Shown here piece by piece: positions 56,238-60,107 of a DNA stretch of 64,000 nt (positions are counted from its first letter, which is position 1; every line of letters starts with the position of its first letter). The translations under genes and the position numbers were made by a program. Source of the stretch: Nocardiopsis xinjiangensis YIM 90004. Lineage in GTDB: Bacteria > Actinomycetota > Actinomycetes > Streptosporangiales > Streptosporangiaceae. The notes below the pieces were generated by a model. That model had not been told where the DNA came from. It searched no databases and was given only the letters and a program-made list of their open reading frames with translations. The stretch is from NCBI RefSeq assembly GCF_000341145.1, contig NZ_ANBE01000007.1:12072-76071 (forward strand), given 5' to 3'.

Positions 56238-56478
56238 CTCAGCCCTCTTCGGTCACCGTCCGGGTGCCGTAGCGTCCCGGCGGGCCCGCTGCGATCCAGG
56301 GCGGGCCCTGTCTGGGGCGCTCTACCCGGCACCGGCCCGCCCTTACCCTCCGCGGAGGTGTCGGTGCAGCTCACCCCGCATGCGGCCACCGACCAGCACC
56401 GGCGCGGGGGTGTTGCACACGAGCGCTGGATCCCGAATCCGGGGGACGGCGACGGGGTGTTTGTCGTACCTGTGGACG

Positions 56479-56544
56479 ATAACGGGGTTTCTCGTGGTTC
56501 CGCTTGTAGCACCGGAGATAATAACGAGGTTTCTCGTGGTTCCG
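56479..56544. repeat. Two 24-bp direct repeats
   Basis: ATAACGGGGTTTCTCGTGGTTCCG-type units lie at 56479-56502 and 56521-56544 with one mismatch and a 42-bp period, just outside the left flanking repeat of the HNH unit. Confidence 0.8.
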
Positions 56545-56897
56545 GGGGTGGTGGTTCGTCGGGGTCGGGATTTTAGCCCGGCCGGGTCTTTGCGCAACCC
56601 GCTTCGGCGCACCCCCCACACACCTTTCCCTGGGTAGGGATGGTGGCGGCGCTGTGAATGGTTGTTCCCAGCGCCTCGGGGTGTGCGCTTCGACCCTCGA
56701 CGCCGGGCTTTCCCGACCCGTATCGACGAACCCCTTCACCCCCGGCTCCCGGTCGCCGAAGAAATGGGGCCCCAAAAGCAAACCCCCTGTGGTGGCCACA
56801 TGGCGGCCAACGGTCGGGGCGTGTGCACGGCCGCTCGCCCCTGCGACAGCCACAAACATGGCCCCGGCACTCCCGGTGGCGCATCGAGGCCGGGGGT
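56540..56897 (+). repeat. Left arm of about 360-bp inverted repeat flanking the DUF222/HNH gene
   Basis: Comparing this stretch with the reverse complement of 58930-59292 shows long matching blocks in the same order. These include TTAGCCCGGCC at the outer side, CGCCTCGGGGTGTGCG with GACGCCGGGCT, then CCAAAAGCAAACCCCCTGTG running into GTGGCCACAT, and GGCCCCGGCACTCCCGGTGG running into GGCGCAT and GAGGCCGGGGG at the inner side. The central blocks are near identical, others diverged. I find no convincing gene in it. Confidence 0.85.
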
Positions 56898-56958
56898 GGC
56901 CGGCGTGCGCGCACTCGGGTCTCCTCTCATCCTACTCCGGGAAAGCAGGCCGGTGGAG

Positions 56959-57072
56959 TTGTCCACAGGACCATTTTCGGGAATGCACTTCGGGAACTGC
57001 GGCGCGGTTTCCTGAGAGATTCCCCGGGTCGAGGGTAAGGGTTTTCTGCCTTTGAGGGGAGTGTTATCCGCA
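56959..57072. promoter_or_regulatory. DnaA-box-like motifs upstream of the HNH gene
   Basis: TTGTCCACA (56959-56967) equals the actinomycete DnaA-box consensus, and TTATCCGCA (57064-57072) is a one- or two-base variant on the same strand. Two sites are too few to claim an origin. Confidence 0.4.
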
Positions 57073-57091
57073 GGGGAGTTTCTCTTAGAAT
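57064..57091 (+). promoter_or_regulatory. Likely leaderless promoter of the DUF222/HNH gene
   Basis: TTATCC (57064-57069), a 16-base spacer and TAGAAT (57086-57091). The expected transcript start, about seven bases after the -10 box, falls on the ATG at 57098. Confidence 0.55.
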
Positions 57092-57097
57092 GGAAGC

Positions 57098-58594
57098 ATG
57101 ACGGAATACACCGCAGCACCCGGAGCAGGAACGGCCCCCGACGCGGCCGTTGCCGCGCTGGATACTGCGGTCCAGGACGTCCTCGCCTCTTTCGAGGGCG
57201 ACATCCCCTTCGGCGCGGCCGCCGGTGTGTTGGAGCGCATCGAAGCGGTGCACGCACGCATCGATGAGCTCAAGGCCGGGTTACTCGTCCCGCTCGCGCA
57301 GATGGAGGCCTCGGGCGAACTGCTCGAAGAAGGCGGACAGAAACACCTGGACGCCTACCTCACCCACGCGTGGGGCATCCATTCCGGCGAGGCCGAACGC
57401 CTGGCCCTGCTCGCGGTCGGCCTGCACCAGCAGAGCCTGCCCGACACGGCCCAGGCGTTGGCCGAGGGTGCGTTGACGCTGGGCGAGGCCTCGGCCATCG
57501 CCTCGGGCGCCGAGCGCGAGGTGAACAAACGCGATACCGCCGCCCGCCCGGACGCGCAGCACTACCGCTCCATGATCGAGACCGGGCTGGTGGGGGCCAA
57601 GCGCGAGCGCGGGGCGATGTCGGTGCGGTCCCTGACCCGCACCGCCAACGCGTTGGGCCTGGAGCTCAACCCGGACCGGCCGGAGAAGAACGAAGAGGCC
57701 GCCTTCGCCGAACGCGGCGCGCGGTTGCGGCGCACTTTCGAGGGGAGCTTCCAGTTCGAGGCCTGGGGCCCATCCGGGGACGCCGAACGCCTGCAGGCGG
57801 CACTGGAGTCCTACACCGCCCCCTATGACGGGGAGGCGCCCGTCTCGCGGTATGCGCGTACCTATGACGCGTTGCTGGCAGCGGCCGGATTCGCGCACGG
57901 CCACCACGGTTGTGCGAGGGCGCCGGGCCCCAAGGCGGTCATCAACATCACCGTGCCCCTGTCCGCCCTCATGGACCTGAACAACCAGCACCCGAAGCCG
58001 GACCAGGATGAGAGTCGGCCCCAGGGCGAGAGCCCGGACGAGGGCAAGAACCCGGACGGGGGCCGGTCCTGGGAACAGGGTCAGGGGCAGACCCCGGGCC
58101 CGGGCTCGGGTCCGGGCGGGGGTGGTGGTCCGGCTCGGACCGAGGACGGCAACGTCCTGGCCGCCTCGGTGGTGCGGGCGATGGCGCCGGAGGCGCAGCT
58201 GCGCCGTCTGGTTTTCGATGACCGCACCGGCCTGCCCCTGGACCTGGGCCGGGCCCAACGCCTCGCGCCGGGCTATTTGCGTACGTTGGCGTTTGCGAAG
58301 CACTCCACCTGCGCCTGGGGCGGCGGGTGCGACGTGCCGGTCTCGCGGTGCGAGGCCGACCACAGCACCGAGTTCTCCCACGGCGGCACCACCAGCGCCG
58401 CCAACCTCCAACCCCTGTGCTCGGTGCACAACCGGCTCAAGTACCGCCGCAACACCCGCCGCCGGAACAAAACCGGGACCGGAGCCGGGGCCGGGGCCAA
58501 AGCCCCGCCCCCGCCGGACGGCAAGGCCCCGCCGGGAGGCAAAGCTCCGCCGGGCCCGCCGGGTGCGGCCGACCCGCCCGACTCCACGGGCTGA
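57098..58594 (+). CDS. DUF222 / HNH endonuclease-domain protein (13E12-like)
   Basis: A 498-residue protein of the actinomycete DUF222-HNH family, which includes the mycobacterial REP13E12 proteins. The N-terminal helical DUF222 domain (about 40-290) is followed by a glycine-, proline- and acidic-rich linker (about 295-350). The C-terminal HNH nuclease domain has CAWGGGCDVP, RCEADHSTEFSHGG (about 417-430), ANLQPLCSVHNRLK with the final His-Asn, and zinc-binding cysteines. A Pro/Lys/Gly-rich tail ends the protein. It is presumably a DNA nickase or nuclease, function unproven. It is enclosed by inverted flanking repeats and followed by complex palindromes, suggesting a mobile unit. Confidence 0.92.
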   Translation: MTEYTAAPGAGTAPDAAVAALDTAVQDVLASFEGDIPFGAAAGVLERIEAVHARIDELKAGLLVPLAQMEASGELLEEGGQKHLDAYLTHAWGIHSGEAERLALLAVGLHQQSLPDTAQALAEGALTLGEASAIASGAEREVNKRDTAARPDAQHYRSMIETGLVGAKRERGAMSVRSLTRTANALGLELNPDRPEKNEEAAFAERGARLRRTFEGSFQFEAWGPSGDAERLQAALESYTAPYDGEAPVSRYARTYDALLAAAGFAHGHHGCARAPGPKAVINITVPLSALMDLNNQHPKPDQDESRPQGESPDEGKNPDGGRSWEQGQGQTPGPGSGPGGGGGPARTEDGNVLAASVVRAMAPEAQLRRLVFDDRTGLPLDLGRAQRLAPGYLRTLAFAKHSTCAWGGGCDVPVSRCEADHSTEFSHGGTTSAANLQPLCSVHNRLKYRRNTRRRNKTGTGAGAGAKAPPPPDGKAPPGGKAPPGPPGAADPPDSTG

Positions 58595-58644
58595 CACCAT
58601 CACCCTCCTCACCCCCGGGAAGAGAGCCCCGGGGCCCTGCCCCA

Positions 58645-58686
58645 TGGCACCCCCTGGCCGGGAGGCGACTGTTCCCGGCCAGGGGT
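58645..58686. terminator. Hairpin terminator after the HNH gene
   Basis: A 16-bp inverted repeat with one bulged base (58645-58661 with 58671-58686) and a 9-base loop, 50 bp after the stop. Confidence 0.8.
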
Positions 58687-58717
58687 GCTCGGGTGGGCGT
58701 ATTTCGGCGGTGTAGGC

Positions 58718-58783
58718 GGACGCTCCCCCGATTCGCGGTCATTTTCGGCGCCGAAAATGGCCCCGGTTGGGGGGGGAGCGTCC
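58718..58783. repeat. Nested inverted repeats (outer 12-bp stem, inner 20-bp palindrome)
   Basis: GGACGCTCCCCC (58718-58729) pairs with GGGGGAGCGTCC (58772-58783). Between them lies the perfect 20-bp palindrome CATTTTCGGCGCCGAAAATG (58740-58759). It could fold into a cruciform. Confidence 0.85.
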
Positions 58784-58929
58784 CCGGAAAACCCCGCTGT
58801 TGGTGCTCATGGGAGCACTGTCAACACTCGGGGGCGGCCCCGGAGGCCGGCGGCCTGGTGGCCGAGCTTGGCACTGGCAGCAAGATCGGCCGTTCCTGGG
58901 CAGTTCCAGAGCCGCGCACACGCCGCTCG

Positions 58930-59292
58930 CCCCCGGCCTCAATGCGCCACCGGGAGTGCCGGGGCCAGGCCTGTGCCTCCGCAGGAGGGCTTCCGCAGGA
59001 GCGAGCCACCATGCCCACGCCCCAAGCGGTGCACGCAATGTGGCCACCACAGGGGGTTTGCTTTTGGACCCCCACTTCTTCGGGCGGATGAGGGGGTCGG
59101 CCGGTGGGTGTTCGGCGGCGAGAGCGGAACAGCCCGGCGTCAAGGGGCGGACCGCACACCCCGAGGCGCCCCACACCAACCAGGTAGGACGCCGCACCTT
59201 TGGGCAGGTCCCGAGGGTGTGGGGGTGGCGCCGAGAGGGTTGCGGGAAGCCCTGGCCGGGCTAAGCTCGACGCTCCGACGAACACCACCCGC
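58930..59292 (-). repeat. Right arm of about 360-bp inverted repeat flanking the DUF222/HNH gene
   Basis: Inverted partner of 56540-56897. Its inner end begins CCCCCGGCCTC and its outer end is near GGCCGGGCTAAGCTCGACG. Compared with the left arm it contains a different segment of about 40 bp between the DnaA-unrelated central blocks, so the arms have diverged. Open frames in it are short and not supported. The 59293-59393 remainder holds nothing evident. Confidence 0.85.
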
Positions 59293-59393
59293 ATAGAAGA
59301 TCTCAGCCACAAGCCCCCGACCCACCACCCACCAGAACCGAGCCACCGGTCTCCCACCACTCTCCCACCGGCCGGGGCCGCCCTGTGACGGAT

Positions 59394-60107
59394 TCAGCCG
59401 ATGCGCACGACCCGGAAGGGTTCGGCCAGGTGCCCCTCGGGCAGGCCTGCCTCGGTGGCGTTGGCGGCCATCCATTCGCGCAGCATCGGTTCGAGCTCGG
59501 CGATGTCGCCGACCTGGCTCTTGTGCGCGGCCAGCGCCGCCACCTTGCGTTCGAAGACCTCGGTGATGTCCGAGTGGTGATCGGGACGGGGCCCGCCGAC
59601 CACCCACACCTCGGGGACGGCCCACGGCGTCAGGCCCTCCTCGTAGAGGAGTTCACGGTGGGCGTGCGGGTTGCGGGCGTCCGGGAAGACCGCGTTGATG
59701 GCGGCTTCTCCGGCGGCCATGTGGTCGGGATGGCTGGCGGGGATACTGTCCCAGTCGCGTTCGGGGCTGGGGATGACCACACGCTGCGGCCGGACCTGGC
59801 GGATGACGCGGGCGATGTCGCGGCGCAGGTCGAGGGTGGCCTCGAGCCGCCCGTCGGGGTACCCGAGGAACCGTACGTCCTCGACCCCGGCCTCGGCGGC
59901 GGCCCGGCGCTGTTCCTCGCGACGCATCGCACCGATCTCGGCGCTGTCCATGGTGAGTTCGTCGCCGCCGGCCTCGCCGTCGGTGGCCATGAGGTAGACG
60001 ACCTCGGTCCCGGCCCGAGCCCACAGGGCGACGGTCCCAGCGCAGGAGAAGTCGGCGTCGTCGGGGTGGGCCATCACGACCAGGGCGCGTTCGGGGGCGT
60101 CAGACAC
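59394..60107 (-). CDS. PIG-L/LmbE-family deacetylase
   Basis: A 237-residue zinc-dependent N-acetylglucosaminyl deacetylase-fold protein. The metal motif AHPDDADF lies near residue 12 and the partner HPDHMAAG further on; TDGEAGGDEL is also typical. Relatives include MshB and Mca of mycothiol metabolism and many unknown deacetylases. I chose GTG 60107, preceded by AAGGAG with six-base spacing; the frame runs further upstream without such signals. No mycothiol gene is adjacent, so the substrate is open. Confidence 0.92.
   Translation of the reverse strand: MSDAPERALVVMAHPDDADFSCAGTVALWARAGTEVVYLMATDGEAGGDELTMDSAEIGAMRREEQRRAAAEAGVEDVRFLGYPDGRLEATLDLRRDIARVIRQVRPQRVVIPSPERDWDSIPASHPDHMAAGEAAINAVFPDARNPHAHRELLYEEGLTPWAVPEVWVVGGPRPDHHSDITEVFERKVAALAAHKSQVGDIAELEPMLREWMAANATEAGLPEGHLAEPFRVVRIG

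Follow-up and report, generated by a model that had tools for sequence, protein, structure and literature searches.

The DUF222/HNH gene described here belongs to a repeated, apparently mobile unit with long inverted hairpin arms, one copy of which lies in a 64,000-nucleotide stretch of the Nocardiopsis xinjiangensis YIM 90004 genome (the window; Table 1). A sequence-only reading of the window had proposed a mobile-looking unit at this position, and this was borne out: a blast search of the genome with the unit as query gave 103 matching pieces that resolve to ~38 arm-bearing places, gene-less derivatives occur and relatives carry empty sites. We consider the mobile unit itself to be well supported. 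Our preferred explanation of how it spread, which we rate at slightly below an even chance, is that the window feature is one old copy of a unit that an IS982-family transposase moves in trans, with the DUF222/HNH gene as a conserved passenger whose product would act on the arms.

Table 1. Features of the unit in the window (positions count from the first letter of the window)
Feature	Position	Strand	Basis or remark
Whole inserted unit, approximate limits	56377..59393	.	Comparison with empty orthologous site of G024; ends decayed
Two copies of 24-bp subterminal repeat ATAACGGGGTTTCTCGTGGTTCCG, outside left arm	56479..56544	+	Repeat family D5
Left arm	56528..56920	+	Repeat finder and blast; 81-84% identity to left arms of other copies
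Covarying hairpin, outer half of left arm	56552..56732	+	Fold z-score -7.7 (window copy)
DUF222/HNH gene, 498 aa	57098..58594	+	ORF and Pfam
Short inverted repeats 3' of DUF222/HNH gene	58725..58796	.	Repeat finder I12, I15
Right arm, inverted copy of left arm	58906..59293	-	81-90% identity to right arms of other copies
Covarying hairpin, outer half of right arm	59109..59285	-	Fold z-score -3.0

The inverted arms that the earlier reading saw around the gene are real. The repeat finder aligned positions 56554-56912 with 58914-59283 as four in-register inverted blocks (73-87% complementary), and left and right arms matched each other in the blast search (195 bits, E = 3e-49, 73%). The two window arms are inverted and 72-73% identical to each other over ~370 bp. 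The coordinates originally proposed, 56540-59292, cover most of the arms, but the whole unit is larger: homology to the empty site in a related Nocardiopsis genome (G024) stops at ~56376 on the left and resumes on the right at the stop codon of the neighbouring gene (59394-59396). The GGTTTCTTGTGGTGCC motif of the subterminal repeat occupies the same position in other unit copies, and the stretch holding the short inverted repeats downstream of the gene (the MIDR piece) is kept in five gene-less copies (L017, L021, L024, L027 and L030).

Each of these five gene-less places in the window genome has both arms, and there is a second full copy of the unit on contig C38. Several halves with the gene are cut off by contig breaks, presumably reflecting the difficulty of assembling repeats of this kind; most sister genomes are likewise drafts, broken at the arm repeats. 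Across four Nocardiopsis species (the window genome, N. kunsanensis (G015), N. coralli (G007) and G024), we identified 21 two-arm loci, and in all 21 the arms are inverted and face each other. The same layout thus recurs at other DUF222 genes, with seven of the pairs enclosing a DUF222/HNH gene and 14 lacking one, and the uniform orientation leads us to reject the suggestion that independent insertions each left behind a copy of a conserved flank. Arms without DUF222 genes had been named as a finding that would speak against the unit. They do occur, but these are remnants or pairs that have lost their interior, in keeping with non-autonomous derivatives. These gene-less copies are MITE-like in being multicopy (14 pairs), lacking a transposase and having terminal inverted repeats, with matching termini readable on L017, L086 and L222.

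Empty sites, whose search the sequence-only reading had recommended, were found at three loci. The window site is a plain intergenic gap in G024, holds a different small gene in N. coralli and contains an internally deleted relic of the unit in N. kunsanensis. The gene-less copy L024 is missing at the orthologous N. kunsanensis site, and N. coralli carries a 44-bp stretch in place of the G024 unit at L158. Other unit sites are common to the window species and N. kunsanensis, and within-genome copies mostly share 78-92% identity, so no recent burst is apparent. At one N. kunsanensis locus (L089, contig C16), the DUF222 open frame is kept though both arms are stubs, and arms persist at its orthologous counterpart in the window genome (contig ends L029 and L016).

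An alignment of 24 full-length arms from the four species gave a consensus fold with a long hairpin of ~180 nt in the outer half of each arm (columns 22-204). The hairpin contains compensatory changes, for example G-C to A-T, with up to three pair types per position. In its columns, 98% of cells were paired and 48 cells had changed on both sides, compared with 93% and 16.8 in shuffled alignments, and sliding the partners by 1-3 columns left 36-48% paired. The number of covarying pairs (n = 6) was not above the shuffle level, in a test that is inflated by related sequences. Arm covariation therefore supports the hairpin rather than proving it, and a DNA palindrome bound by a dimeric protein would show the same trace as a folded single strand. 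An Rfam search of the unit returned two sub-threshold chance matches only.

Inverted repeats flank 13 of 16 Nocardiopsis DUF222 loci as opposed to 1 of 33 in other genera, with those of G008 and other Nocardiopsis DUF222 subfamilies having sequences of their own. The hairpin appears to belong to one clade, because its covariance model had no significant match at G008-type or other DUF222 loci (best E = 0.21); the G008 arms did not fold unusually well. Several variations on the arms were also seen. In N. coralli loci including L091, L160 and L166, the inner arm end is in tandem with a period of ~64 bp and varying copy number. Eight DUF222 units of G008 (L144-L151) have a sharply defined left end, GTTTTCCACAGG, and on the right finish in a variable number of tandem ~73/147-bp units with CGTTGA. 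Finally, L164 (G024, contig C223) has an extra 13-bp inverted repeat, TCCTCGCAACACC, outside the arms, possibly the terminus of another unit clade.

Left and right arms in the window genome form two sequence types, and in one G024 copy they are 98% identical. Homogenised arms within some units (98% in L090 and 93% in L158, versus at most 83% to other copies) would suit a homing-like spread, in which the HNH protein cuts unoccupied or diverged copies, recombination repair copies the unit with the arms serving as both homology and target, and gene conversion between copies is driven by the protein. The REP13E12 loci of Mycobacterium tuberculosis, which are DUF222 loci, are gene-conversion hotspots (PMC13061034), in agreement with such a process. 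However, insertion sites have in common only a short CTAG-like target and no arm sequence, and the empty sites lack an arm; we regard homing as improbable.

The 498-aa protein matched Pfam DUF222 at 61 bits (cut-off 24.4) and HNH at 19.9 bits, slightly below the 21.4 cut-off; nothing else in Pfam rose above noise, including the Y1/HUH enzymes (Transposase_17). The Cys and His columns of the HNH motif are invariant across 32 diverse members, and dN/dS was 0.15-0.34 among copies of the same subfamily and 0.5-0.6 against the more distant L158, values that indicate purifying selection. The DUF222 half of the AlphaFold model was good, and it found no relative in PDB sequence and fold searches or among viral structures. 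In PDB searches, the HNH part resembled the nicking HNH nuclease 4h9d and phage HNH proteins, all at E > 0.04. DUF222/HNH genes, often multicopy, were present in 90 of 118 sampled genomes of the class. In two genomes of other genera (L200-L207 in G051 and L208-L215 in G119), DUF222 is repeated as compact ~1.5-kb units without arms, whose borders are sharp and run from the promoter side to immediately past the stop codon. Carriage by phages or plasmids was dropped as an explanation, with no match to the unit among phage records and one weak match among plasmids.

The arms had been taken as the very ends of the unit, which was not supported: better-kept copies in the window species and N. kunsanensis reach beyond them to ATCGTTGATGGGG, a terminus common to an IS982-type insertion sequence, beside CTAG-like targets and often at stop codons. 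Both flanks outside the arms carry GATCRTTGATGGGG, inverted, in L017 and L086, and more altered versions in L021 and L083. In a 250-bp derivative (L222), both termini are present and joined via the outer hairpin stems. The terminus GATCGTTGATGGGG (a 14-mer, allowing one mismatch) occurs 10 times in the window genome and 17 times in N. kunsanensis, whereas the reversed control had no occurrence. Roughly half of the occurrences fall within arm-bearing places; another five belong to the N. kunsanensis insertion sequence, and the remainder comprise short derivatives and unexplained cases. An insertion-sequence-end 17-mer also had 18 exact matches in viral contigs; the two examined looked unrelated and this lead was set aside.

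The N. kunsanensis insertion sequence is known from its ends, in which CTAG is followed directly by ATCGTTGATGGGAAAT, and which lie at the ends of five contigs. One end reads into ...SLVAYDH-stop, the C-terminus of an IS982 transposase; in Rhodococcus and Streptomyces, annotated IS982-family transposases have the ending ...SLIAYDH, and the Rhodococcus relative has CTAG at both ends. The five contig ends (L262, L263, L264, L265 and L231) carry near-identical IS982-type sequence inserted in CTAG, with the terminus of the DUF222 unit.

Among the 4-mers adjoining unit termini, CTAG accounts for 4 of 23, at a background of 0.0002 per position, and the others are close variants. Target duplications, another proposed check, were found in part: exact 4-bp direct repeats in the CTAG register flank L086 (CTGG) and L017 (CGAG), but those of L021, L083 and L222 are inexact. 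We dropped GATC as a 4-bp duplication because it is palindromic and the CTAG/ATC register better suits the insertion sequence and the L086 and L017 repeats; L042 was set aside as a GGTC duplication, its left end being readable two ways.

Twelve of 30 unit ends lie within 7 nt of a stop codon, compared with 6% of random positions, because CTAG is preferred and contains TAG. Ends at stop codons, together with strong hairpins, sites common to more than one species and the divergence among copies, would also fit a unit that is immobile now, with a relic DUF222 gene and with hairpins that the host retains at gene ends for transcription termination or a similar purpose. We consider this very improbable: species differ in presence and absence, the termini are defined, gene-less derivatives are dispersed and the nuclease gene is under purifying selection.

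Because an IS982-type insertion sequence has the same terminus and CTAG target, movement in trans is probable in this clade. According to our preferred explanation, the unit would consist of an outer terminus, short subterminal repeats, a hairpin arm, the DUF222/HNH gene, an inverted hairpin arm and a second outer terminus. In the window species and N. kunsanensis, where units end in IS982-type termini, an IS982-family transposase would move it, or have moved it, in trans, along with the gene-less derivatives of ~1.1 kb and ~250 bp. The DUF222/HNH gene, which is the sole recognised protein gene in the unit (no IS982-type transposase gene was found inside it), would be conserved cargo together with the arms. 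The protein would target the hairpin arms and probably nick or cut them, as suggested by the HNH nuclease adjoining covarying hairpins. Several observations count against movement by IS982: the termini of the window copy have decayed beyond reading, ATCGTTGATGGGG-type termini are absent from the units of N. coralli, G024 and G008, and DUF222 units of other genera are multicopy without arms or such ends.

The DUF222/HNH protein could instead be the mobilising enzyme, recognising the arms as single strands or palindromes and moving the unit and its gene-less derivatives in the manner proposed for RAYT transposases and REP/REPIN hairpins, but with an HNH nuclease. Arms co-occur with DUF222 genes, and extensive arm matches (blastn) are confined to four of 40 genomes of the genus, those with this DUF222 clade, the DUF222 gene being present in 13 of the 40. 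The covarying hairpins, the conserved nuclease motif under purifying selection and the long inverted arms that other Nocardiopsis DUF222 subfamilies have of their own are all consistent with such a role, as is the dispersal of DUF222 units in other genera with sharp paralogue borders and no other obvious gene. The match of the outer termini to an IS982-type insertion sequence and its target argues for a different mover, as do the 250-bp derivatives, which retain the termini and just the stems of the arms, and the units outside Nocardiopsis, which lack long arms. We judge a mobilising role unlikely but give it some weight, because DUF222 units spread in multiple copies elsewhere without such ends and REP13E12 loci are conversion hotspots (PMC13061034).

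The unit resembles several known systems. REP13E12/13E12 of Mycobacterium also places a DUF222/HNH gene in dispersed chromosomal repeats, but the family is compact (~1.5 kb) and without long inverted arms class-wide, as judged on other DUF222 units rather than REP13E12 itself; to a gene of this type the Nocardiopsis unit adds arms, subterminal repeats and IS982-like termini. RAYT/REP systems share the layout, in which inverted palindromic repeats enclose a nuclease gene and also occur as dispersed inverted doublets with complementary mutations (PMC2817692, PMC3116915). The enzyme here is HNH rather than Y1/HUH, the repeats are ~370 nt rather than 20-40 nt, the gene is multicopy and outer termini lie beyond the repeats. 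Because enzyme, repeat size and copy pattern differ, the unit is not a REP/RAYT member; it strikes us as distinctly unlikely that DUF222/HNH proteins are the enzymes behind mobile hairpin repeats of a class not yet described and functionally equivalent to RAYT/REP. Like IS982 insertion sequences and their MITEs, the unit has short gene-less derivatives, and its terminus ATCGTTGATGGG and CTAG target are also those seen in the N. kunsanensis insertion sequence, but it carries DUF222/HNH and long hairpin arms instead of an IS982 transposase gene. In the searchable literature on DUF222 and REP13E12, we came across no earlier account of DUF222 genes flanked by inverted arms.

The DUF222/HNH family is multicopy in most actinobacteria, includes REP13E12 of M. 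tuberculosis and has no known function. One lineage displays a full anatomy around the gene: arms with covarying hairpins, derivatives without the gene, termini and empty sites. It can thus be used to ask whether the protein mobilises DNA, only travels with an insertion sequence or promotes gene conversion among copies; the nuclease may be the unit's passenger or its mover.
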